Assembly (NCBI GenBank): GCA_947487055.1
Contig: CANKVN010000014.1
Span: forward strand, 1 to 36,290
DNA from: Flavobacteriales bacterium
Lineage (GTDB): Bacteria; Bacteroidota; Bacteroidia; NS11-12g; UBA955
DNA: 36,290 nt
Reading direction: 5' to 3'
Under the pieces are notes generated by a model. It saw nothing but the letters and a program-made list of their open reading frames with translations, did not search any database and was not told the origin of the DNA. Shown here in pieces: positions 4,287 through 32,799 of the stretch (position 1 is its first letter; the number at the start of each line of letters is the position of its first letter). Made by a program: the position numbers and the translations under genes.

Positions 4287-5402
4287 TTATCTGGTTTTGG
4301 CGAACCGCAGGTTAAACTTCTGCCCAGCGGAAATAATTTTTAGGATATATATCCCTTCTGGTAAATGTGCTACACTCAGTTTTTGGGTGTTATCCGGTTT
4401 GCCTATGTCCATCAACATGCCTGTTGCATTAAAAATCTTGTATTCGGTGTTTTTCAGATTTTTCACTCCGGTTATCTGCAGGAAATCCATGCAGGGGTTG
4501 GGATAGATGCCTGGAGCCGGTCTAAAGGTGTTTTCGGCCTTGCAAACCTCACTGTAACTGAATTTGCCATCCCTGTCTATTTGCTTAATCCGGTAGTAGG
4601 CATTGCCAGCTACAGCCAAAGTGTCTTCGAAATAATATTGACTTGTCGTTGCACTGAACCCAGCTGCGGGTAATTCGCCAATGGGGGTAAATTCTTCTTC
4701 ACCAATGCTGCGTTCTATCAAAAACCGATCGGTATTGCTTTCCATGGCGGTACGCCAATTTAGCATTACATTTCCGTTGTTTTGGGATTTGCACTGAAAG
4801 GTTAGCCAGGTTAAAGGCAAAGGAACCACAGCATCACCCCCAATTACAAAAGGGGAGAAGCTGCCGGAATACCCTGTTTGGGTGTAAATATAGGGGGATG
4901 TACCGCTAACACTGCCTGTTCCTGCAGCAATTTCCCAAGCGCTCAGCGATGTATTATAATGATTGAGTGTGGGTGGGCTCAAGGTGCCAATGATTTCTGA
5001 AGATCGATACATGAATTTCATGTCTACGCCACCACCAATGTTGGGGTTGCTTTTGGTGATATCCCAGGTGCGGAAAACCAAATCCTTGTTGAACAATGTA
5101 CCCGTTAATCCACCGCGCCATGCGGAATCCAAAACTTTCACCGTGAACACATCCACCCCGGTTCCATTGTTGTTTTTAACATACAATTGGTTGTAAGAAG
5201 AGCGGCCAATATGGAAGGTGAAATTGGATCCGTTGCTTATGCTTGACTTGTAAACCCCGGTGCCATTGGTTCTTACATAGGAACTGGCAGAGCCGCCAGA
5301 TACATTGGAAAGCTGATCGTGCTCCAGGGTGAAGTTGCCAATGGTGATGATGCCATTGGTAAGGGTCAGTAAATCATCACAAATAAATTGGAATAGATAC
5401 AT
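4287..5402 (-). CDS. C-terminal part of a frameshifted T9SS beta-repeat protein
   Basis: This 371-residue ORF is the downstream half of a gene whose upstream half is the ORF at 5366-7696. It has no signal peptide, and its apparent ATG lies inside the overlap, so it is probably not a natural start. It continues the repeat pattern (LTLTNGIITIGNFTLEHDQL), then matches the downstream part of the 1112-residue paralog: a FTVKVLDSAWRG segment, the GYSGSFSPFVIGGD stretch, PLPLTWL, and a T9SS type A sorting domain (YPNPCMDFLQITG ... LPEGIYILKI). If joined with the upstream ORF the product would be about 1130 residues, close to the 1112-residue neighbour. Without the join it cannot be exported. Confidence 0.75.
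   Translation of the reverse strand: MYLFQFICDDLLTLTNGIITIGNFTLEHDQLSNVSGGSASSYVRTNGTGVYKSSISNGSNFTFHIGRSSYNQLYVKNNNGTGVDVFTVKVLDSAWRGGLTGTLFNKDLVFRTWDITKSNPNIGGGVDMKFMYRSSEIIGTLSPPTLNHYNTSLSAWEIAAGTGSVSGTSPYIYTQTGYSGSFSPFVIGGDAVVPLPLTWLTFQCKSQNNGNVMLNWRTAMESNTDRFLIERSIGEEEFTPIGELPAAGFSATTSQYYFEDTLAVAGNAYYRIKQIDRDGKFSYSEVCKAENTFRPAPGIYPNPCMDFLQITGVKNLKNTEYKIFNATGMLMDIGKPDNTQKLSVAHLPEGIYILKIISAGQKFNLRFAKTR
5366..5402 (-). other. Frameshift junction splitting the beta-repeat gene
   Basis: The upstream frame reads TMNGSGGICIYSNLFV and then hits a stop as VMIY*. The downstream frame overlaps here and resumes the repeat as DDLLTLTNGII. Adding one base near position 5379 (after the FV codons) would give ...NLFVDDLLTLTNG..., which matches the repeat pattern of the paralog. 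The overlap of the two ORFs is 37 bp. I see no slippery heptamer, so a mutation or a sequencing error is more likely than programmed frameshifting. Confidence 0.7.
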
Positions 5403-7696
5403 ATGCCCCCGCTACCGTTCATGGTCAGGGTGCTAATGTCGGCATTTACAAAAAGATTTGCCGGTATGGTTAAATAGGATGTATTGGTAAATTCAACGGT
5501 AGCAGTGGTTGCGTCTATGGTGCCCAAACTGCGGGAAATAGAGCTGCCGCCGTAAGTAAATGACTTGTTGAATAAATCAAAAATGCCTGACGTTAGGGTG
5601 ATGTTGCCGTTGAGGGTGCGGTTGGCGTGCAACTTAACCGTGGCTGTGCTGCTGCTGCAATTGATAATCAGGTTTTTTGGTCCGTTGGTGATGGGCCAGA
5701 ATACATCGGCTGTGTTCATGCCCGACGTAATCTCCAGGGTGCCATTACTGCCAAAGGCTATGCTGCCGCTGACAGAAAAATTGACGGATGAATTAATGCT
5801 TAACTTTCCATTAATCGTTAGGGTTTTTCCTGCAGCCACCACGAGCGTTCCACCGGTCATAATAATATTATCTACCACATCACTGCCCTGAAAATCCAGC
5901 ATGCCTGTGCCCGATACTGAAAAATCGGCATTATCATCGATCAGGTTGTCATTGTAGAATTCAATTTCACCACCGGAAATATCATAATTTAAACTTCCCA
6001 TGGTTCCGCTCGTGCCCACGGTTCCCCCGGCTACAGTGGTGGTGCCTGTGTATGTTTGTGCATTGAAAAGCGCAAGTTTGGTGGTGCCCGAACCATTCAT
6101 GGTGAGGTTGCCTTGCCCGGAGATGGTACTTTGGTAATTTATCCCTTTGTTGGCACCATTGATGGTGAGGGTTACACCGCTCCCGATGCTCGCGGTTCCG
6201 GCATCTGAAACGGCAGTTTCCTGCAGCGAACCGATTGTGGTATTGGCGTTCACCGTTAGGGAAGCGCCATTGGAAATAAATATGTCTGATCCGCTACCGA
6301 GAGAGCCATTGCTGCCCACAGTAATATTGCCTGCGGCAATGCGTGTATCGCCGGTGTAGCTGTTTATTGCGTCAAGGGTTAGGGTTCCTGCACCATCTTT
6401 GTAAATAGACGTGGTGGTTCCGTTGTTTGTGGCGCCTGCGCCGCTTATTATGCCTGAAATACTGGTGTTTTGTGAACCTCCAACAAATAGCACATTGGCT
6501 CCGCCGCTTACATTCCCGGAAAGCAAAATATTGCCGGAGGTTGCATTAATTCGGCTGCTTGAGCCAAGGCCTATGGGGCCGCTCCACCCGGATGAAGATG
6601 TGCTGCTATTGTTTAAAGCGCCTCCTGTGGATATGCCTAATCCATTTAATGTTAATGCCTCACTATTGGTTGGCGTAATTCCGTATAAATCCAGCACGCC
6701 GCCTGAACTTACAGTGGTGCCTGCGGCTGTTGTTCCCAAAGGTCCATTGGGCGAAGTGCCTGCTGCGTTTATTTTAAGTGTTGCATTTGCATTTATGGTG
6801 GTAAGCCCGGTGTAGCTGTTGTTTTGGCTTAGAATTACCGCAGAGCCTGCGCTGCCGCCAATATTTACGGCATTTGACTGGCTGGTGCTGTTGGATGTGC
6901 TTATCAGTCCGTCGGTTACCTTGCCCGGGGTGAAGGTGCCGCTGCTTAGGTAGTAGCCCAGGTTTGAACCGCCGGTGGAGAGGTGCGAAAACGCTTGTTT
7001 CCAGTAAATATCCGCATTTGCAGACCCGTTCCAGTCATCTTCCAGATAGAGGACAAAATGGCTGATATTGGCGCCTGCAGTGCCGTTCATGGTCAGGTTA
7101 TTCAACCTTTCATGAAATGTCCCATCTACCCATAATTCTACATTGCAATTTGTTTCCGATAAAACATGAATTTTGAACTGGTAGTCTCTTCGGGTGGTGC
7201 TTACGTTGTAATTTAAGGTGCTGTTTCCTGCATTGTGATTGACATACCAGGATGAGGTGACATCGTCAACCTGTATGTATAATCGCGAATTATCATGCCT
7301 GTTGGCCCAGCTGCTGGTAGCCGATGGTGATGCATTAAGGGACAGACCGATACAGCCCATCGCCGACGTAGCTGAAACCGTTATGGTTACCAGATCGCCT
7401 GGCTGCAGGTTGCGGTCGTTGCCAGTGTTGTCGCCGGCAGTTTTAAATTTGCGCCAGGCAACCACCTGCTTGGCTCCGGTAGATTTGGCATACATGCCCA
7501 ATTCGGTAGTGCCCGCGTTGGCAAATGCCCCGGCAGTGCCATCGGTAAATAAGGTGTAATAACCGGCGTTGCCCAAGGTGTATGTAACCTGGCCTTTAGC
7601 TGAATGAAATGCCATTCCCAACAACATCCAAAACCAAAAGAATTTGGATGGTGGTCTTTTAAGACAAAGCGCAATATTGGCTGCCCAATAGTACAT
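5366..7696 (-). CDS. N-terminal part of a frameshifted T9SS beta-repeat protein
   Basis: This 776-residue ORF has a signal peptide (FFWFWMLLGMAFHSAKG, then QVTYTLG) and a repeat-rich beta-helix-like body. It includes autotransporter-associated strand repeats such as GTLTLDAINSYTGDTRIAAG. The N-terminal ~230 residues are less repetitive and look like a lectin- or sugar-binding-like beta-sandwich (LYIQVDDVTSSWYVN, FKIHVLSETNCNVELWVDG), but I cannot assign a family. It stops inside a repeat because of the frameshift near 5379, so the T9SS sorting signal is lost from this ORF. If the frameshift is real, the product would reach the periplasm but lack its T9SS export signal. It lies downstream of the TonB receptor but has its own promoter-like dyad. 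Confidence 0.75.
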   Translation of the reverse strand: MYYWAANIALCLKRPPSKFFWFWMLLGMAFHSAKGQVTYTLGNAGYYTLFTDGTAGAFANAGTTELGMYAKSTGAKQVVAWRKFKTAGDNTGNDRNLQPGDLVTITVSATSAMGCIGLSLNASPSATSSWANRHDNSRLYIQVDDVTSSWYVNHNAGNSTLNYNVSTTRRDYQFKIHVLSETNCNVELWVDGTFHERLNNLTMNGTAGANISHFVLYLEDDWNGSANADIYWKQAFSHLSTGGSNLGYYLSSGTFTPGKVTDGLISTSNSTSQSNAVNIGGSAGSAVILSQNNSYTGLTTINANATLKINAAGTSPNGPLGTTAAGTTVSSGGVLDLYGITPTNSEALTLNGLGISTGGALNNSSTSSSGWSGPIGLGSSSRINATSGNILLSGNVSGGANVLFVGGSQNTSISGIISGAGATNNGTTTSIYKDGAGTLTLDAINSYTGDTRIAAGNITVGSNGSLGSGSDIFISNGASLTVNANTTIGSLQETAVSDAGTASIGSGVTLTINGANKGINYQSTISGQGNLTMNGSGTTKLALFNAQTYTGTTTVAGGTVGTSGTMGSLNYDISGGEIEFYNDNLIDDNADFSVSGTGMLDFQGSDVVDNIIMTGGTLVVAAGKTLTINGKLSINSSVNFSVSGSIAFGSNGTLEITSGMNTADVFWPITNGPKNLIINCSSSTATVKLHANRTLNGNITLTSGIFDLFNKSFTYGGSSISRSLGTIDATTATVEFTNTSYLTIPANLFVNADISTLTMNGSGGICIYSNLFVMIY

Positions 7697-7718
7697 AGGA
7701 GAAGGTACGTTGAGGGTT

Positions 7719-7756
7719 ATAAGTGTAAAATTAACACTTATTCATCAAAAAAGCAA
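7719..7756 (-). promoter_or_regulatory. Putative promoter/operator dyad upstream of the 5366-7696 gene
   Basis: There is a perfect 8-bp inverted repeat ATAAGTGT-N7-ACACTTAT (7719-7741). On the - strand its centre reads TAATTTTA, one base off TAnnTTTG. A TTG lies 20 bases upstream (7754-7756). The core GTGTTAnnTTTACACT is shared with the dyad upstream of the paralog at 4151-4173, which suggests a common regulator or a recently duplicated promoter. The predicted leader is about 20-25 nt. An AT-rich hairpin acting as a weak terminator for the preceding receptor gene is the alternative. Confidence 0.4.
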
Positions 7757-7766
7757 CTGCCTAAGT

Positions 7767-10058
7767 TCAGAACTTAATGACAATGCCACCAAGCATGTGT
7801 CTGGTTGCTTGTGGATACAAAAACACTTCCTGGGTGATATCGCGGCTGCCGTAGGTGTACATGAATGTATATCCGTTCGATGAATACTTGCTGTTAAAAA
7901 GGTTCAGGATCTGCAACTGCGCGGATACTGTTGTTCCTTTGTTTACCATAAATGTTTTTTGCAGCCATAGCTCCGCAAACTGGTAAGGATTTAAACTGCG
8001 GTAGCGATCGCCGGTATTGTCCAGATATTGGCGGCTAACAAACTTGTGCAGGTAGCGGATGTTCCATTGCCCCGGCAACTGGTACTCCAGCCATGCTCCG
8101 GCGTTTACTGCCGGCGACATTGCAATCGGAACGTTGCGGAAAACACTGTCCTTATTCACGTAGGTAAAATAGTCGGGAATAACGTTGGTGATGCTTTTGA
8201 TTTTATTTTGGCTCAGGGCAATATTGCCGCCAATGGTAACATGCTTTATGGGACGAATTTCGAATCCTGCCTCAATCCCGCGGCGGAAACTGGCTTCTGC
8301 GTTGCGCCTTAGGGCAGACCCTACATCGTTCACTTCACCGGTCAAAACCAACTGGTTTTTGTACTTCATGTAGTACAGGTTCACGAACAGGTTCATTTTT
8401 TCGGTTTGTCTGCTCCATCCCAATTCCCAGTCTGTGAGTTTCTCCGGCTTTGGTATGTCTCCGGATTTGTGGTCTGTGAAATCGCTTCTGGATGGCTCTC
8501 GCTGGGCAATGCCCATGCTGCCGTAAAAGCTGTTTGCATTTATTTGGTACATCAGGCCTGCTTTTGGGTTGAAAAAGCCAAAGTTCCCATTGAAATCAAT
8601 GGCCCTGAGGTCGTTGTCTGTTCCTGTTCCCCGGTGGGATACCTGCCTGTATTGCAAATCAATCCAGGCGTGCAAACCGGTGGATACTTCATGGTTCAGC
8701 TTGGCAAAGATGGTGGCGTCTGTTTTGTTGCCTCTTCCATTGTAATAAGGGTGGTTTGGACTTGCGGAAGGCGCAGCACTCGCCCATATTACACGGCCAA
8801 AATGTTTGCCCTGGTACTGGTTCAGGCCGGCGCCCAGAATAAAGTTGAAACGCTGTGTGTGGTAGTTCCAGTTCACATTGGTGCCAAGCAATGTATTGTC
8901 CAGCCACCTTCTTCGCACGATGTCACTCCGGAAAAGGGTATCCGTGCCAACAACAGTTGGCGGCAGCAGGTAATTGGATAGTTTATCCTGTGGTTTAAAC
9001 TGCTCGAAAAATCCGAAACCGTGGGTGAAGTAACCGGTTGCATACAGCTGGCTGTTTTTGCCGGTGTTGATGTTCAGGTATAGGTGATGGTGGTTTTGGG
9101 TGTAATCATCAACTTCTGAAGCATAGTTGTAATAATTATAGCTGCGGGGGTTTGAATTGAATAAATTGATGGAATCTGCAGGGTTTCTATAGGTTACTCC
9201 AAGGTTGCGGTAATAATGGTTTAGCAGGTCGCTGGAACTGCCGAATAATTTTTCTTTGGGAACACCCCACCATGCCTGATAGGTTTGTTCTTTGCCACCA
9301 AAGGAAAGCCATTTTGCTGACCAGTTTTTATGTTGGTAGCCTACGGATGTCATGTAGGAGCGGAGTTTGCTGTTGGCCCTGTCTACAAAGCCATCGCTGT
9401 TGATGGCGGAGAGCTTCACATCCACGGTCCAGTGCTGGTTGATTAATCCTGTTCCTGCGGAAATGGAATGTCTTAGGGTATTGAAACTGCCACCGGAATT
9501 GGACACCAGGACGTAGGGATTGTTTGAACTGTAGGTTTGCATGTTTACCGATGCGCCAAATGCTCCTGCTCCGTTGGTGCTGGTTCCCGCGCCACGCTGT
9601 ACCTGAACGCTTGCAAGGCTGCTTGCCATGTCGGGCATGTTTACCCAAAATGTTCCGTGGCTTTCTGCATCGTTGATGGGCACACCGTTTATGGTTACAT
9701 TGGTGCGTGTGGCATCGCTTCCGCGCACACGAATACCGGTATATCCAATTCCTGCTCCTGCGTCGCTGGTGATGGTGATGCCGGGTTGAAACTGTAGCAA
9801 TACGGGCAAATCCCTTCCGGTGTTCTGTATTTGAATTTCGGCCCTGCCTACTGTGGTTTGGGCAATAGGCGCTGCGCTTCCGGCGCGGGTTGCCGATACC
9901 ATAATGGCTTCAATGCTCTTGGACGGGGTGGTGGTGTCTGCCTGTGGGCCAATGCTGTCCGCAAATGCAGTATTGCGGTTGTTTGGCAGTGGCTTGATAG
10001 CGGCTTGCAGCAGCAGTGTCAATGAGAAAAATACAGTGATAAAGATGGTTTTTTTCAT
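7767..10058 (-). CDS. TPP-riboswitch-controlled TonB-dependent outer-membrane receptor (probable thiamin importer)
   Basis: This is a 763-residue TonB-dependent receptor. A signal peptide (MKKTIFITVFFSLTLLLQAA) is followed by a plug domain (VSATRAGSAAPIAQTTVGRA, then GIRVRGSDATRTNVTINGVP and VQRGAGTSTNGAGAFGAS). A 22-strand-type barrel follows, ending in the terminal aromatic GGIVIKF. The ORF track starts at 10124, but that ATG lies inside the TPP riboswitch. The ATG at 10058 precedes the signal peptide, so I use it. Because TPP controls the leader, the substrate is inferred to be thiamin, its phosphates or a precursor. TonB receptors under THI elements are described in Bacteroidetes. No SusD partner or thiamin transporter gene is adjacent. 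Confidence 0.88.
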   Translation of the reverse strand: MKKTIFITVFFSLTLLLQAAIKPLPNNRNTAFADSIGPQADTTTPSKSIEAIMVSATRAGSAAPIAQTTVGRAEIQIQNTGRDLPVLLQFQPGITITSDAGAGIGYTGIRVRGSDATRTNVTINGVPINDAESHGTFWVNMPDMASSLASVQVQRGAGTSTNGAGAFGASVNMQTYSSNNPYVLVSNSGGSFNTLRHSISAGTGLINQHWTVDVKLSAINSDGFVDRANSKLRSYMTSVGYQHKNWSAKWLSFGGKEQTYQAWWGVPKEKLFGSSSDLLNHYYRNLGVTYRNPADSINLFNSNPRSYNYYNYASEVDDYTQNHHHLYLNINTGKNSQLYATGYFTHGFGFFEQFKPQDKLSNYLLPPTVVGTDTLFRSDIVRRRWLDNTLLGTNVNWNYHTQRFNFILGAGLNQYQGKHFGRVIWASAAPSASPNHPYYNGRGNKTDATIFAKLNHEVSTGLHAWIDLQYRQVSHRGTGTDNDLRAIDFNGNFGFFNPKAGLMYQINANSFYGSMGIAQREPSRSDFTDHKSGDIPKPEKLTDWELGWSRQTEKMNLFVNLYYMKYKNQLVLTGEVNDVGSALRRNAEASFRRGIEAGFEIRPIKHVTIGGNIALSQNKIKSITNVIPDYFTYVNKDSVFRNVPIAMSPAVNAGAWLEYQLPGQWNIRYLHKFVSRQYLDNTGDRYRSLNPYQFAELWLQKTFMVNKGTTVSAQLQILNLFNSKYSSNGYTFMYTYGSRDITQEVFLYPQATRHMLGGIVIKF

Positions 10059-10082
10059 GGATGCATATAGTTTTCTGCATCC
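10059..10082 (-). promoter_or_regulatory. Hairpin abutting the start codon (riboswitch expression platform)
   Basis: GGATGCA and TGCATCC form a perfect 7-bp stem around a 10-base loop. The 3' arm ends directly before the ATG at 10058. Its position suggests that it controls translation initiation, and that ligand binding upstream decides whether it forms. There is no U-tract, so transcription termination is less likely. Confidence 0.45.
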
Positions 10083-10105
10083 GAAGCACCCCTGATAAGG
10101 TGGGA

Positions 10106-10184
10106 CATTTCCCTGCGCAGGCATTATCCTGATCAGGTATTGCGGGTATTGTCTCAGCGTTCCTTTACGGAAGCACCCCGAATG
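10106..10184 (-). promoter_or_regulatory. TPP riboswitch (THI element)
   Basis: The - strand carries the hallmark TPP aptamer sequences in order: CGGGGTGC, a variable P3 hairpin (TTCCgtaaaGGAA), GCTGAGA, a TACCC strand, CCTGATCAGGATAATGCC and GCGCAGGGA. CATT (from 10184) and AATG (to 10106) can pair as P1. This matches the known consensus, so the call rests on direct sequence recognition. It lies directly downstream of a TACCTTTG promoter box and upstream of the TonB receptor, which it presumably represses when TPP is abundant. Confidence 0.95.
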
Positions 10185-10189
10185 CAGTA

Positions 10190-10222
10190 CAAAGGTAATT
10201 TAATTGACCAGATATTGGCCAA
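10190..10222 (-). promoter_or_regulatory. Promoter of the thiamin receptor transcript
   Basis: TTG (10220-10222), a 22-base spacer and an exact TACCTTTG (10190-10197) on the - strand match the Bacteroidota -33/-7 form. The expected start would be about 5 nt downstream, just where the riboswitch begins. A perfect palindrome ATTGGCCAAT (10214-10223) overlaps the -33 element. Confidence 0.55.
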
Positions 10223-12099: not shown

Positions 12100-13335
12100 T
12101 TAAACCAGCATTTTCACAGGCTCTTCTAGGAATGCCTTGAAGGTGTTGAGGAAGGAAGCTCCAATGGCGCCATCCACCACGCGGTGGTCGCAGCTAAGGG
12201 TCACTTTCATGGTTTTAACAGGCTTGATTTCTCCGTTAACTACACCCACTGTATCTTTTACTGCGCCAACAGCCATGATGCAGGCATCGGGCGGGTTGAT
12301 GATGGCGGTAAATTCTTCAATACCAAACATACCAAGGTTGCTGATGGTAAAGGTATTACCAGCCCAATCCTGGGGTTGAAGTTTCTTTTCTTTGGCGCGT
12401 TTGCCGTAATCTTTTACTTCGGTGCTGATGTGGCTGAGGCTTTTTTGGTCTGCAAAGCGCACCACAGGCACCAGCAAGCCTTCTTCTACAGCCATGGCTA
12501 TACCAATATGGATATGGTGATTGTAGCGGATTTTGGTGCCCAGCCAGCTGCTGTTTACCTTCGGGTGTTTGCGCAAGGCAGAAGCCACCGCTTTGATAAC
12601 CAGGTCGTTCATGCTGATTTTCACATCGCTGATGGCATTCATTTGTTCGCGGGCCGCAACTGCATTGTCCATGTTTATTTCCATGGTCAGATAGAAATGC
12701 GGTGCTCCGAATTTGCTTTCGCTGAGGCGTGCAGCAATGGTTTTGCGCATCTGGCTCACGGCTACTTCTTCGAAGCTTTCGGTTCCGGAAACGTATGATA
12801 TGGCGGGGGCGGATGCTGAAGCGGCAGCAGGGGTAAATTCCTCAATATCCTTGCGGATGATGCGGCCATTTTCTCCTGATCCCTGCACCTGGTGCAGGTC
12901 AATGCCTTTTTCTTCTGCCAGTTTTTTGGCCAAAGGAGAAGCTTTCAGGCGGTCGTCGGCACTGGTTGTGGTAATAGGTGCTGCAACCGGTGCGGCAGCC
13001 GTCTGCTGAGGAGCAGGGGCAGAAACCGTTTCGGCGGCAGGTGCTGCAGAAACAGCCGGTGCTGCCGGTGCTCCGCTGAGGAATGACTGATAGTCATCTC
13101 CGGGATTTCCAACAACAGCAATCACACCATCAACAGGGATGGCGCTGCCTTCTTCCACCAGGTACAGGATGCTGCCCTTGGCATACACCTCCATATCCAT
13201 GGTGGCTTTGTCGGTTTCCACTTCAGCAAGTACATCACCGCTTTTCACGGTATCACCAACTTTGTAATTCCACTTCACAATGACACCTTCGGTCATCGTA
13301 TCGCTCATTTTGGGCAATTTAACTGCTTCTGCCAT
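12100..13335 (-). CDS. pdhC: Pyruvate dehydrogenase complex dihydrolipoamide acetyltransferase (E2)
   Basis: This E2 component transfers acetyl groups from lipoyl-lysine to CoA and forms the core of the PDH complex. From the chosen ATG it has 411 residues. A lipoyl domain (residues 1-75, lipoylated Lys about 43 in VETDKATMD) is followed by an Ala/Pro linker. A peripheral-subunit-binding domain comes next (about 130-166, KASPLAKKLAEEKGIDL). The catalytic domain ends with LSCDHRVVDGAIGA, carrying the HxxxDG active site. The ORF track starts at a TTG (13347) that lies inside a promoter-like TATCTTTG box; the ATG at 13335 gives MAEAVKLPKM, typical for E2. E1 and E3 genes are not in the window. 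A 2-oxoglutarate-type E2 is less likely given the MAEAVKLPKMSDTMTEG start. Confidence 0.9.
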   Translation of the reverse strand: MAEAVKLPKMSDTMTEGVIVKWNYKVGDTVKSGDVLAEVETDKATMDMEVYAKGSILYLVEEGSAIPVDGVIAVVGNPGDDYQSFLSGAPAAPAVSAAPAAETVSAPAPQQTAAAPVAAPITTTSADDRLKASPLAKKLAEEKGIDLHQVQGSGENGRIIRKDIEEFTPAAASASAPAISYVSGTESFEEVAVSQMRKTIAARLSESKFGAPHFYLTMEINMDNAVAAREQMNAISDVKISMNDLVIKAVASALRKHPKVNSSWLGTKIRYNHHIHIGIAMAVEEGLLVPVVRFADQKSLSHISTEVKDYGKRAKEKKLQPQDWAGNTFTISNLGMFGIEEFTAIINPPDACIMAVGAVKDTVGVVNGEIKPVKTMKVTLSCDHRVVDGAIGASFLNTFKAFLEEPVKMLV

Positions 13336-13344
13336 ATCAGTTGG

Positions 13345-13352
13345 CAAAGATA
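13345..13352 (-). promoter_or_regulatory. TATCTTTG -7 box before the E2 gene
   Basis: An exact TAnnTTTG lies 9 bases before the ATG at 13335, so the leader would be very short. The only nearby TTG (13368-13370) is 15 bases upstream, somewhat closer than usual. Confidence 0.4.
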
Positions 13353-24740: not shown

Positions 24741-27413
24741 TTAAAAAGTAATGCGAATACCGGTGGTGTAACGGAATCCGGGGGAAACAAATACTTCGAG
24801 GTTGGTGGGCCTGAAGGTATTGGAAGGGTTGTTGTCTATGCTGCGGTGCTGTGCATCGCTGATATAAAGGTTGTTGGTCACATTTTGGCAGTTCGCATAA
24901 ACCGAAATCTGACCCGATTTATAAGCGGTAAAAGTGTATCCGGCAGAAATATTCATGTACCAGTATGCTGGAATACGGAATGATTCCCGGCCTTTATAAG
25001 CCCCAACAAGGGATAAGGGATCAAAGTCTGCGTAGTGCTTCCAGAAATAGACATACTGGGCTGAGATGTAAGCTCCTTTTAGCAGTGAAGGCTCCCAGCG
25101 CACGCTCCAGGTCCACTGGCACTGTGCCGCGTCGCCCACGTGCACGCCGGAAGCATCGAAATCTACAAGCCCGACAGAATCTCCTGCATCATCGCGTATG
25201 ATACTTCGTGCACCGGATTTCCATTGCCAGTCGGCCAAACTCAATGCACTTTGAATGGTCATGCCATTTCCTGGTTTCAGAATACCTGCAAACTCTACAC
25301 CCATGTGTCTGGCTTTCATGCCGTTGATGTTGTATGAAAACAAATTGCCATCAGGGTCGCGGTAGGTGGGCAGGAAATTTGCAGGGCGGTTTTGCCAGTA
25401 AGTATAGTATACGTTTGCATCCAAACTGAATATGCGGCTTTTATAACCTGCACCGCCTTCAATGGCATATATTTTCTCGTTTTTGGCGTCTTTTACTTCA
25501 ACGTTGTTGTTGTCAAATATATTGTTGAAACGGGTTGGTTTGTTCAAATAACCCACATTTCCAAACAAATTTACATGCCTGCTGATGTTGCGGTTTACCC
25601 CAGTTTTAAGGGTTACACCGGGTCTTCTTACCCAATCGGAAACCTTTGGCTGGCTGTCAGCTGTGAGCCTAAAGAAATCAATCCTGCGGTAGAAGGATTG
25701 TGTGGTACTGGCATTCACGAAAGCTGAAGTCCTGCCTTTGGAATATTCCAGTTCAGCAAACCCACCTATCCAGCGAACCAACCCATCGTTATTGAAACGG
25801 AACTTGTCGCCTTTATGGTAGAGCAGGTCTTTTTTATTGGGGTCCAGTTCACCATTGTCGGGGATGAAATAATCACCACCCAGCAAATCATAAACCTCTC
25901 GGTAATGCTGTGCCCTGTAGGTGCGAAGGTCCAGTCCTCCGGTGAAGGTGAAATTTTTGTTGATTTTGTGGTTGAGCGTGCTCAATGCACCAAACCATTT
26001 GTGGTTGTTTACGCTGCGGTGCAATATGCCGTATGACCTAAGCTCGGTAGCGCTGTATGCAGGGTCGGGATTGGGCACAAATGCAGACCCGGTGGTATTG
26101 GCCCACCATGAGCCTTGCATGTTGAACTGGCCGTAGGTTCTGAGCTGGCTGATGCTGTTGGCTTGCGAACCACCACCTTTGCCGACAGACATATAGGCGA
26201 CCGTGCTGATCAGCGTTTTACTGCTGGGTTTCCAGTCGTGTTTCAGGTAAACCTGGGGTTTGTGAAATTCGTTTACCCGTTCACTTTTGCGGTTGTTCGA
26301 TCCCCAGATGGTATCGCCTACGTCGTTCAACCGGGCCTCATTAAGCCATCCCCAGTGCTGGTTATATTTTCTGCCCTGATTAACGGGCATATTGCCCACC
26401 AGGGTGTCCATATTCAGTTTCATGGCAAGGCCACGGTCATACAAGCTTAACCTGGCCCTAAAGCTGCGCTGTCCATGGCTTTGTGGAGCGCCAACCGCAG
26501 TCAAGGAAAGGGTGTGTTTTTTGCCAAATTTCTTTTCAAGGCGGCCGTAGTAGCTGTACATGTCATCATACAATGCATCTACATAACCGGTGCTGCTTCT
26601 TTTGGTGAAGCTGAAGATGGCGCCCCAGTTTCCTTTTAGCCTGCCAGTATTGATGGTTGCTGAATATTTTTGGTAGCGGGAATCACCAAATTCTGCGTTT
26701 GCAGAAGCTTTAAATTGGTTGGATACACCGCGGGTAATGATGTTCATGGTGCCGCCAACTGCGGGATTGGCGATGCGGCTGCTGCCCAGCCCTCGCTGCA
26801 CCTGTGTGAGTGCGGTCACTTCGCTTAATCCGAACCAGTTGCTCCAGTAAACCTCGCCATTTTCCATGTCGTTCACAGGAATTCCGTCTATCATCACGGC
26901 GATGTTGCGTTGGTTGAAACCGCGAATGGTAATGCGAGCATCACCGGCGCCACCGCCTTGCTGGGTGGCATAAACGCCTGGTGTGTTGTTCAGCAGCATG
27001 GGCATGTCTGCGCTACCGAGTTGCTCGCTGATGGTTTTGCCGTTCAGGTTGCTGTAGGCTATGGGAGTTCTTCTGTCTTTGGCAAGGGAAGCGGTAATTT
27101 GAACCGCTTGCACATCCGTGCTGAGGTTGTCCAGCCTGAAAACGACATTTGGAATAAGGCTGCGGTCGGCAAGGATTTGAATGGTATCGCTGCTGAAGCC
27201 TTCCAGTGTTGCAACCAGTGTATGGTTGCCACCAACCAGCAGCATGCTGAAAGAACCATCGGCTCCCGAAACTGCGGAAACCGCCCTGCTGCTAATAACC
27301 GCTTTTGAGATTCCTTCGCCGGTTAAGGCATCTGTAACCTTACCCACAATCTTTGTTTGGGCTTGCAGCAGACCTGTTCCGCTGAGCAGGGCTATGAGAA
27401 AGGCGGTCCTCAT
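24741..27413 (-). CDS. TonB-dependent outer-membrane receptor with carboxypeptidase-regulatory-like N-domain
   Basis: This 890-residue receptor has a signal peptide (MRTAFLIALLSGTGLLQA) and an N-terminal CarboxypepD-regulatory-like domain (IVGKVTDALTGEGISKAVI ... GFSSDTIQI). The plug has GDARITIRGFNQRNIAVMIDGIP and a VQRGLGSSRIANPAVGG segment, and the barrel ends in TTGIRITF. There is no SusD partner, so it is not a standard polysaccharide locus. Upstream it overlaps the lamin-tail protein gene by ATGA, and downstream the nuclease follows after 4 bp. I infer uptake of nuclease products such as oligonucleotides, nucleotides or phosphorylated fragments, but no motif proves the substrate. Confidence 0.88.
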   Translation of the reverse strand: MRTAFLIALLSGTGLLQAQTKIVGKVTDALTGEGISKAVISSRAVSAVSGADGSFSMLLVGGNHTLVATLEGFSSDTIQILADRSLIPNVVFRLDNLSTDVQAVQITASLAKDRRTPIAYSNLNGKTISEQLGSADMPMLLNNTPGVYATQQGGGAGDARITIRGFNQRNIAVMIDGIPVNDMENGEVYWSNWFGLSEVTALTQVQRGLGSSRIANPAVGGTMNIITRGVSNQFKASANAEFGDSRYQKYSATINTGRLKGNWGAIFSFTKRSSTGYVDALYDDMYSYYGRLEKKFGKKHTLSLTAVGAPQSHGQRSFRARLSLYDRGLAMKLNMDTLVGNMPVNQGRKYNQHWGWLNEARLNDVGDTIWGSNNRKSERVNEFHKPQVYLKHDWKPSSKTLISTVAYMSVGKGGGSQANSISQLRTYGQFNMQGSWWANTTGSAFVPNPDPAYSATELRSYGILHRSVNNHKWFGALSTLNHKINKNFTFTGGLDLRTYRAQHYREVYDLLGGDYFIPDNGELDPNKKDLLYHKGDKFRFNNDGLVRWIGGFAELEYSKGRTSAFVNASTTQSFYRRIDFFRLTADSQPKVSDWVRRPGVTLKTGVNRNISRHVNLFGNVGYLNKPTRFNNIFDNNNVEVKDAKNEKIYAIEGGAGYKSRIFSLDANVYYTYWQNRPANFLPTYRDPDGNLFSYNINGMKARHMGVEFAGILKPGNGMTIQSALSLADWQWKSGARSIIRDDAGDSVGLVDFDASGVHVGDAAQCQWTWSVRWEPSLLKGAYISAQYVYFWKHYADFDPLSLVGAYKGRESFRIPAYWYMNISAGYTFTAYKSGQISVYANCQNVTNNLYISDAQHRSIDNNPSNTFRPTNLEVFVSPGFRYTTGIRITF

Positions 27414-30087: not shown

Positions 30088-32799
30088 TTAGGCAAAAGCG
30101 CGGGCAATGATATCCGCCTGCTCTTTGTCGTGCACTTTTTTGTAGCCGGTAGCCGGGCTGGCGCTGTTGCCCCTTCCCACGTATTTCAAGGCCACAGGCC
30201 AATCGTAGCGCATCAGGTGGAACCAGTAACCCTGATTTCTGGGTTCTTCCTGTACCCAGCAAAATTCTGCACCTTCGTATTGCTTGAAAATTTCTTCCAG
30301 TTTCCACTCAGGCAATGGATATAATTGTTCAATGCGGATAATCGCTACATCCTTGTTTTCCTGTGCGTTTCTTGCCTGCAGCAAATCATAATAGATTTTG
30401 CCTGCGCAGAACAGCACTTTTCTTGCCTTTTTGATGGGTTCGTGGTCCGGAATTAAATCCTGAAATGAACCTTCGAAATCTTCCAGTTTGCTTACGCACA
30501 ATGGATGTCTGAGCAAGCTCTTGGGGCTCATCATGATTAATGGTACCTGAAAATCGCGGTTTAGCTGGCGGCGCAAGGCATGAAACAGGTTGGCAGGCGT
30601 GCTTGGGTAAATAACCTGCATGTTGCCGCCTGCACAAAGTTGCAGGTAACGCTCGGGGCGCGCACTGCTGTGTTCTGGTCCCTGGCCTTCATAACCGTGG
30701 GGAAGCAGCAGGGTTAATCCGCTGAATTTGCCCCATTTGGTTTCGGCACTGGCAATGAACTGGTCAATCATGATTTGGGCACCGTTGGCAAAATCTCCAA
30801 ACTGGGCTTCCCAGATCGTCAGGCCTTCAGGCATTGCGGTACTGTAGCCATATTCAAACCCAAGGGCTGCATATTCGCTCAGCAAGCTGTTGTATACATT
30901 GAAGCTTCCCTGTTTTTCTGAAATATGCTGCAAGGGAATAAACTCCTGCTCGCTGTCTTCTTTTTTCACCACGGCATGCCTGTGGCTAAAGGTTCCGCGT
31001 TCCACATCCTGGCCGGCAAGGCGCACGGGATGTCCTGCTTCCACAAGACTTGCGTAGGCAAGCAATTCACCCATGGCCCAGTCGAGGGTTTCGTTTTGCA
31101 GCATCTTTTTGCGGTCTGCAAAAAGGTTTTGCACCTTGCGAATGGGGAGGTTGTCTTCTGGAATGCTGGTGATTTTTTCACCCAGGGCGAGCAATTTATC
31201 CTTGCTGATGCCAGTATTAACCTCCTTGCTGAAATCCTTTTCAGTAGGGTGTCGGAATCCATCCCAGCGGTCCTTGGTGGTTTTTTTGGCTGGTTTGTGG
31301 TCGCCTTTGGCTTCCTCGAATTTTTCCTGAAGGAGTTGTTTGAACTGCTGTTCCATTTCCGCTGCCAAAACAGCATCAATTTCGCCGCGCTCCATCAGTT
31401 TTTGTTTGTAAATCTCCCTCGGGTTGGGGTGTTTGTCAATAATCTTGTACATGATGGGCTGCGTAAAGCGCGGCTCATCACCCTCGTTGTGTCCGTATTT
31501 GCGGTAGCCCAGCAGGTCAATGAAAATATCGCTGTTGAACTCCAGGCGGTAAGCCATGGCCAGTTTCACGGCATGCACAACAGCTTCCACATCGTCGCCA
31601 TTTACATGCAACACGGGGCAAAGGGTTACTTTGGCCACATCGGTGCAATAGGTGCTGGTGCGTGAATCCATGTAATTGGTGGTAAAGCCAATTTGGTTAT
31701 TGGTAACAATGTGAATGCTGCCACCCACATAGTATGCTTCCAATCCGCTCATCTGCACCACTTCATACACAATTCCCTGGCCTGCTACGGCTGCGTCGCC
31801 ATGGATGAGTATCGGGCAAATTTTATGGACTTCGTTGTTGTATTTGGTATCAAGTTTGGCGCGTGCAAGTCCCTTCACAACAGGGTTAACCGCTTCCAGA
31901 TGGCTGGGGTTGTCTGCCAAACGCAGGTGCACGGTTTTCCCGCTTGCTGTTTCAATGTCTGTGCTGTAGCCGAGGTGGTATTTTACGTCGCCCTCGAAAT
32001 CTTCATCGGCTTCGTTTTGAAATACCTTGCCTTCAAATTCGCTGAAAATATCGCTGTATTGTTTGTTGAATACGTTGGCCAGTACATTCAGGCGTCCGCG
32101 GTGGGCCATGCCCATCACAAATTCCTCAACACCCAATCCCGCTCCATATTGAATCACTGCGTCCAGTGCGGGGATTAAACATTCCAAACCTTCTACGGAA
32201 AATCGTTTCTGACCGATGTACTTGGTGTGGATGAAATTTTCGAATACCGAAGCCTGGTTGAGTTTTTTAAGGAAATGCCTTTTTTCGTCTACGGTTAAAT
32301 CGGGAACGTTGCGTGTTTTTTCGAAACGATCCTGCAACCAGCCCCTCCTGCGGGGATCGCGGATGTAGGTGAATTCGCAACCGATGCTTTGGCAATAGGT
32401 TTGTTCCAGCAACGCGATGATGTCTTTAAGTTTGGCTTGTCCCAAACCCACTTCCACGCCTGCGTTGAATTGCTTTTCCAGGTCTGTGGCGCTTAGCCCG
32501 AAGTTTTCAATATCCAGTGTGGGCGTGTATTTGCGACGCTCACGAAGGGGGTTGGTGCTGGCAAATAGATGGCCGCGCTGCCTGTAGGCGTTAATCAGGT
32601 TTAGTACCTGAATTTCCTTAAGTGCATCTTCGCTAACCGGGCCTCCGGTTTCTGCCTTTTCTGCGCCCAGGTCGAAGCCTTCGAAGAATTTTCTCCAGCC
32701 AAAATCCACGCTTTCTTTGTCTGCGCGGTATTGTTCATACAATTGGTCTAAGGCTGCGGGGTCGGCATTCAACAGATACGATTCGTCAGGCTGGCTCAT
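30088..32799 (-). CDS. sucA: 2-oxoglutarate dehydrogenase E1 component
   Basis: This 903-residue, thiamin-diphosphate-dependent E1 decarboxylates 2-oxoglutarate and passes the succinyl group to lipoyl-E2 in the TCA cycle. The N-terminus has the typical SYLLNADPAALDQLYEQYRADKE E2-binding segment. The catalytic core shows MGMAHRGRLNVLANV, HGDAAVAGQGIVYE, NNQIGFTTN (TPP/Mg site region), LGYRKYGHNEGDEPRFTQP and LLPHGYEGQGPEHSSARPERYLQ. The C-terminal RNQGYWFHLMR and GRGNSASPATGY finish is standard. Length is normal and no frameshift is seen. sucB is not adjacent. A good promoter precedes it, so it is probably monocistronic. Confidence 0.96.
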   Translation of the reverse strand: MSQPDESYLLNADPAALDQLYEQYRADKESVDFGWRKFFEGFDLGAEKAETGGPVSEDALKEIQVLNLINAYRQRGHLFASTNPLRERRKYTPTLDIENFGLSATDLEKQFNAGVEVGLGQAKLKDIIALLEQTYCQSIGCEFTYIRDPRRRGWLQDRFEKTRNVPDLTVDEKRHFLKKLNQASVFENFIHTKYIGQKRFSVEGLECLIPALDAVIQYGAGLGVEEFVMGMAHRGRLNVLANVFNKQYSDIFSEFEGKVFQNEADEDFEGDVKYHLGYSTDIETASGKTVHLRLADNPSHLEAVNPVVKGLARAKLDTKYNNEVHKICPILIHGDAAVAGQGIVYEVVQMSGLEAYYVGGSIHIVTNNQIGFTTNYMDSRTSTYCTDVAKVTLCPVLHVNGDDVEAVVHAVKLAMAYRLEFNSDIFIDLLGYRKYGHNEGDEPRFTQPIMYKIIDKHPNPREIYKQKLMERGEIDAVLAAEMEQQFKQLLQEKFEEAKGDHKPAKKTTKDRWDGFRHPTEKDFSKEVNTGISKDKLLALGEKITSIPEDNLPIRKVQNLFADRKKMLQNETLDWAMGELLAYASLVEAGHPVRLAGQDVERGTFSHRHAVVKKEDSEQEFIPLQHISEKQGSFNVYNSLLSEYAALGFEYGYSTAMPEGLTIWEAQFGDFANGAQIMIDQFIASAETKWGKFSGLTLLLPHGYEGQGPEHSSARPERYLQLCAGGNMQVIYPSTPANLFHALRRQLNRDFQVPLIMMSPKSLLRHPLCVSKLEDFEGSFQDLIPDHEPIKKARKVLFCAGKIYYDLLQARNAQENKDVAIIRIEQLYPLPEWKLEEIFKQYEGAEFCWVQEEPRNQGYWFHLMRYDWPVALKYVGRGNSASPATGYKKVHDKEQADIIARAFA

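Follow-up and report, generated by a model that had tools for sequence, protein, structure and literature searches.

A TPP riboswitch ahead of a TonB-dependent receptor in a Flavobacteriales genome and its predicted anti-P1 expression platform

How a TPP riboswitch could shut off a gene that has no Shine-Dalgarno sequence, and what the product of that gene imports, were the questions raised by a 36,290-nt stretch of DNA from a Flavobacteriales bacterium (hereafter the window). A preliminary description, made from the letters alone, had placed a THI element on the minus strand at 10106-10184, directly after a good promoter and ahead of a TonB receptor, and had proposed a search with the Rfam TPP model as a check.

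The riboswitch, its promoter and the receptor gene

The search with cmscan gave a strong minus-strand match to RF00059 at 10190-10093, which covered the full model (1-105) with 65.0 bits against a gathering cut-off of 54.3 (E 9.6e-11). It was the sole Rfam match at the gathering threshold in the 36-kb window, and no other TPP riboswitch was found in the genome (2.34 Mb, 95% complete). P1 was formed by 10185-10181 and 10109-10105, so that the limits of the aptamer were within a base of those first proposed, and the conserved core letters (CUGAGA, ACCUGAUC, GGAUAAUGCC and GCGCAGGGA) were all present. With a complete-model score above the curated cut-off, the element belongs to the TPP riboswitch class; judged by its sequence, the aptamer is a standard TPP riboswitch of known biology, which presumably binds TPP. 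The promoter was also supported. A −7 box of the Bacteroidetes sigma-A type, TAccTTTG, was located at 10190-10197 of the minus strand with the same spacing in 7/7 members of the genus, and a possible, weak −33 TTG element was seen in the sequence at 10220-10222, 22 nt upstream of the −7 box. When the box at 10197-10190 was placed at −12 to −5, as in Flavobacterium psychrophilum (PMC9723704), the +1 position was expected at about 10185, where P1 begins. At all seven genus loci and at 28 of the 30 family loci having a box, the start so predicted fell 0-2 bases before P1.

The gene behind the riboswitch (7767-10058, minus strand) encoded a TonB-dependent outer-membrane receptor of 763 aa with a signal-peptide-like N-terminus. 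Both receptor domains scored over their cut-offs, the Plug domain (PF07715) with 49.6 bits (E 6e-13) and the beta-barrel (PF00593) with 66.3 bits (E 6e-18). The start codon is likely the ATG at 10058, located 34 nt past the end of the Rfam match and 46 bases after P1 closes, rather than the mechanical ORF start at 10124, which lies inside the riboswitch. The claim that the riboswitch stands directly ahead of a TonB receptor was thus borne out, and the two were found together in 7/7 genomes of the genus, with receptor identities of 61-72%. Elsewhere in Bacteroidota, a TPP element defined by the strict core pattern was found upstream of 36 of the 65 receptor homologues. A TonB-dependent thiamin receptor controlled by a TPP riboswitch is known from Bacteroides thetaiotaomicron as OMthi (BT2390; Costliow & Degnan 2017, PMC5613172). 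The receptor of the window resembles OMthi in standing directly behind a TPP riboswitch in a member of Bacteroidota, and the conservation of this riboswitch throughout the genus agrees with an OMthi-type receptor, a predicted thiamin importer. The order of riboswitch and receptor is established for Bacteroidetes, and here it was met in a new lineage.

Several neighboring genes were also noted. A gene for a T9SS surface protein follows the receptor after about 70 nt (gap 7697-7766) in the window and in four sister species (L032, L033, L034 and L035), and the gap contains a hairpin-like motif around GTGTTAA(C/T)TTTACAC. The surface-protein gene may share the TPP-controlled transcript, or a weak terminator may lie between the two genes. 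In the window this gene was split into two overlapping minus-strand ORFs, 5366-7696 and 4287-5402 (overlap 5366-5402). One undivided ORF of 1133-1134 aa is present in three sister species, and compared with these the window is one base short within the overlap, which is either an assembly error or a real frameshift. A second, distantly related TonB receptor (24741-27413, minus strand) has a BtuB-like plug far below the family cut-off, and similar proteins were found in sister genomes.

Two competing helices in the leader

The mechanism of TPP control in Bacteroidetes was described as uncertain (Costliow & Degnan 2017, PMC5613172). The leader of the window contained two helices that compete for the same element. 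In the first, the anti-P1 helix, the 5' arm CUGCAUUCGGGGUGCUUC (10170-10187, minus strand) comprised the 5' strands of P1, P2 and P3; with an mRNA start at P1, 16 nt of the arm (10185-10170) would remain. The 3' arm GGGGUGCUUCGGAUGCAG (10075-10092, minus strand) formed the antisequestor element in the leader. The two arms made 18 uninterrupted pairs (10187-10170 with 10092-10075), against a mean of 7.1 in shuffled sequences, and the duplex of −19.9 kcal/mol was better than all 200 shuffles, a number that sets the lowest attainable p at 0.005. In the second helix, the sequestor hairpin, GGAUGCA (10076-10082) from within the antisequestor element paired with UGCAUCC (10059-10065), which lies flush with the AUG at 10058-10056, all on the minus strand. 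No Shine-Dalgarno sequence was found ahead of this AUG. Once P1 has formed, the leader element that is complementary to the P1 5' strand can also pair with the bases at the start codon (10082-10076 with 10065-10059), a pairing that was weak in one sister species, G001. A further alternative pairing joined CCUUAUCAGG (10091-10100, minus strand) to the aptamer segment CCUGAUCAGG (10137-10128), with 90% complementarity, and was present in the minimum free energy (MFE) fold. This anti-P4 pairing was set aside as a general switch because it was not seen in this form in the sister leaders inspected.

The two helices suggest a translational OFF switch of the "anti-P1" type described for E. coli thiC. 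When TPP is scarce, the beginning of the mRNA, which carries the 5' strands of P1, P2 and P3, would pair with the leader element that immediately precedes the gene. P1 would thereby be broken and the flank of the start codon left open, and the receptor would be made. When TPP is bound, P1 would close, and the freed leader element would pair with the nucleotides adjoining the AUG and so exclude the ribosome, which in this phylum is not guided by Shine-Dalgarno pairing. Bacteroidota ribosomes do not recognise Shine-Dalgarno sequences (PMC9976891), and initiation in Bacteroidota is tuned by the structure of the start region (PMC6847099). We consider it likely that the TPP riboswitch is a feedback OFF switch that acts through this anti-P1 platform on an OMthi-type receptor, whose gene is the only one under TPP control in an organism auxotrophic for thiamin. 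In ligand-free E. coli thiC, the P1 region is likewise engaged by a distal leader element, a pairing that is exclusive with P1 and with the hairpin at the start site (PMC5234074). The scheme was reported to be conserved in an alignment of 77 gammaproteobacterial sequences (PMC5234074). Unlike thiC, in which the ribosome binding site and the AUG are sequestered, the window has no Shine-Dalgarno sequence and a hairpin that is flush with the AUG; the helix of the window type is also 13-18 bp long, and transcription is expected to start at P1.

Three observations lead us to infer control of translation: the leader has no terminator, a hairpin abuts the AUG, and the OMthi and pnuT mRNAs of B. thetaiotaomicron showed no significant response to thiamin in RNA-seq (PMC5613172). 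No terminator-like site was present on the minus strand between 10190 and the start codon, on which ground an intrinsic terminator in the leader was rejected, and the start-proximal hairpin was followed by an A-run instead of a U-run. All of these observations make it unlikely that the riboswitch acts on transcription, by intrinsic or Rho-dependent termination, instead of on the initiation of translation, even though mRNA levels are reduced by some TPP riboswitches, Rho termination accompanies translational control in E. coli thiC (PMC5234074), and one relative in the family, G068, has a GC-rich hairpin and a U-run right after its aptamer.

For the window, the outcome of folding the leader in silico depended on the start of the mRNA. 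With a start at 10190, the 18-bp anti-P1 helix was the MFE structure of the free window RNA, and the 3' arm of the sequestor (10059-10065) was paired at 0.99 when the aptamer was held. With a start at 10185, the anti-P1 helix fell to 0.19 because other pairings competed, and the sequestor was paired at 0.95 even without the aptamer held. The predicted switch of the window itself is thus absent when the mRNA starts at exactly P1, and it appeared in the folds of most sister species. In the six sister species, the ligand-free anti-P1 pairing was 0.54-1.0. When the aptamer was held, pairing of positions −7 to −1 in the sequestor rose from 0-0.45 to 0.86 in five of the six, and in G001 it rose from 0.19 to 0.29 only. 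Compared with the free ensemble, the aptamer fold cost 3-10 kcal/mol in the genus. TPP binding could plausibly pay this cost. Equilibrium folding was used for all of these values, and it takes no account of the order in which structures form during transcription, a factor of importance in E. coli thiC (PMC5234074).

Thiamin metabolism and the cargo of the receptor

TonB receptors take up many kinds of cargo, and the gene content of the genus bears on the substrate in this case. ThiC and ThiE (TMP synthase/TenI) gave no match in the 7/7 genomes of the genus, whereas the same searches were positive in 13 and 11 of the 14 control genomes, respectively. The ThiD kinase family gave no match over the cut-off in the same seven genomes and was positive in 14/14 controls. 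A PnuC/PnuT-like permease and thiamin pyrophosphokinase (TPK) were found in 7/7 genus genomes. Since the three biosynthetic proteins are missing and the permease and TPK are kept, the genus should need preformed thiamin, and precursors should be of little use to it. The preliminary description had named "thiamin or a precursor" as the substrate; these losses speak against the precursor, and thiamin is supported as the predicted cargo.

The neighbors of the homologues point in the same direction. A PnuC/PnuT-like gene directly followed the receptor homologue at several loci (L051, L057, L060, L079, L080, L083, L090, L092 and L096), and a TPK-like gene adjoined it as well at L060, the sole such case. 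Homologues in Bacteroidaceae and Prevotella adjoin a PnuC/PnuT-like permease, as OMthi does. In the genus of the window, the permease and TPK genes are in the genome and unlinked to the receptor. The receptor of the window differs from OMthi in being the only gene with a TPP riboswitch, the permease being encoded elsewhere without one, and in belonging to a genome that has no thiamin biosynthesis as a fallback. The permease gene of the genus (L157, 1483-2046; G000:C72) lies away from the receptor, in a placement unlike the receptor-linked arrangement of other Bacteroidota, and is flanked by a superoxide-dismutase-like gene and a gene for a 469-aa Cys-rich protein. As far as its sequence goes, it is PnuC/PnuT-like and may be either PnuT or PnuC.

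The cargo is most likely intact thiamin rather than a precursor, a prediction favored by the missing ThiE and ThiD, the TPP control and the PnuT/TPK adjacency among the homologues. The matches of the receptor examined in PDB and NCBIfam include none that names thiamin: no relative in PDB was found by sequence at E<=0.001, and the NCBIfam matches were low-scoring haem/transferrin receptors only, far under the cut-off. These matches would leave room for another cargo, such as a precursor, an unrelated ligand or thiamin phosphates, which could also be taken up, but a cargo other than thiamin is quite improbable in a genus that lacks the ThiE and ThiD by which precursors would be used and whose receptor homologues indicate thiamin through their TPP control and their PnuT and TPK neighbors. 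The window was also said to encode two enzymes that depend on the supply of the cofactor. OGDH E1, a TPP enzyme, was found at 30088-32799 (1219 bits), and the PDH subunit (12100-13347) is the E2 acetyltransferase, which does not itself bind TPP.

Conservation of the anti-P1 helix and its scope

The alternative helix was examined in a set of 91 TPP loci that covered this genome and related ones; 78 to 82 of the loci had a usable leader. Segments of 14 nt along the aptamer were scanned against the leader and compared with dinucleotide shuffles. Clear complementarity was confined to the 5' strand of P1, at a mean z of −1.9 (78 loci), and most other segments were at about −0.2. The P1 3' strand was rejected as the switching strand since segments at the 3' end of the aptamer had no clear complementarity to the leader beyond the shuffles. 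With a 16-nt strand, p<=0.05 was reached at 6/7 genus, 24/32 family, 6/17 order and 9/22 class loci. In a strand-swap test, 17 of 41 genera had a strand that outperformed the strands taken from other genera (rank <=0.05), compared with 0-7 of 41 for control segments. The uninterrupted helix had 15-16 bp in four of six sister species and 9 and 10 bp in the other two; the 9-bp helix, in G005, was not significant. In the family the helix was commonly 13 bp, and relatives often had 13-16 bp, against about 7 in shuffles. The leader fold with the start-codon hairpin was more stable than shuffles at 7/7 genus and 20/32 family loci, and the effect was weaker beyond the family.

The element complementary to the P1 5' strand also covaried with it in the family. 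In the diagnostic column, which is the base before CAUUCG, pairing with the leader occurred as G-C, U-A or A-U. This base was paired with the leader at 30/32 loci, compared with 13.8 expected by shuffling (P 5e-5, a value that ignores relatedness), and in 20/22 after thinning. It was paired with its own P1 partner at only 12/32 loci (16 expected), so that the base seems to be retained for the anti-P1 helix rather than for P1. All three pair types occurred within one genus (g5), which implies several independent changes. Although the 3' arm in the window holds an exact 10-nt copy of the 5' strand of aptamer P2/P3 (GAAGCACCCC, 10092-10083 identical to 10179-10170), which pairs with its original through G-U wobbles, it is very improbable that the complementarity is a by-product of duplication or chance and that TPP acts otherwise, for example by direct occlusion by the aptamer, because the sister species form the 15-16 bp of the same helix with different letters, three pair types occur at the covarying diagnostic column even inside one genus, and the swap test favored the own strand in more genera than it did the control segments.

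The reach of the anti-P1 platform beyond these relatives was limited. In a second set of leaders, from distant receptors, 5/43 were at p<=0.05 (binomial P 0.06, not significant); a phylum-wide platform was dropped on this result, and the claim was limited to the family and scattered members of the class. Within this range we tentatively propose, as a possibility somewhat short of probable, that TPP riboswitches of Bacteroidota use a platform independent of Shine-Dalgarno sequences, in which the extreme 5' end of the mRNA would be the antisequestor (up to 16-18 bp), its position fixed by a promoter in phase with P1, and a hairpin abutting the start codon would stop translation. Two elements in the set, in G068 (L146) and in G112:C7 (L123), were of a GGGGA type with a GC-rich hairpin directly after the element, and with a U-run in G068, which suggests a terminator-type platform within the same class.

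Exchange between the aptamer and the expression platform is likewise supported by covariation in a full-length TPP model built on a terminator-type seed (NAR 2026, PMC13273304), but the aptamer and platform of that model have only two nucleotides in common. In the literature examined, no description of anti-P1 logic in Bacteroidota was found; a 2019 preprint on Bacteroides TPP riboswitches, represented here by its citation in PMC7366714 and outside this comparison, concerns the same question in the same phylum and may already describe a related platform. The finding at this locus is confirmed and largely ordinary, and the comparison of platforms lifts it somewhat above routine annotation. For the organism, the receptor is apparently the one entry route under TPP-riboswitch control for a vitamin that the lineage cannot make. 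For the family, the proposed platform offers a concrete, testable model of how a riboswitch may shut off translation where Shine-Dalgarno sequences are not used.
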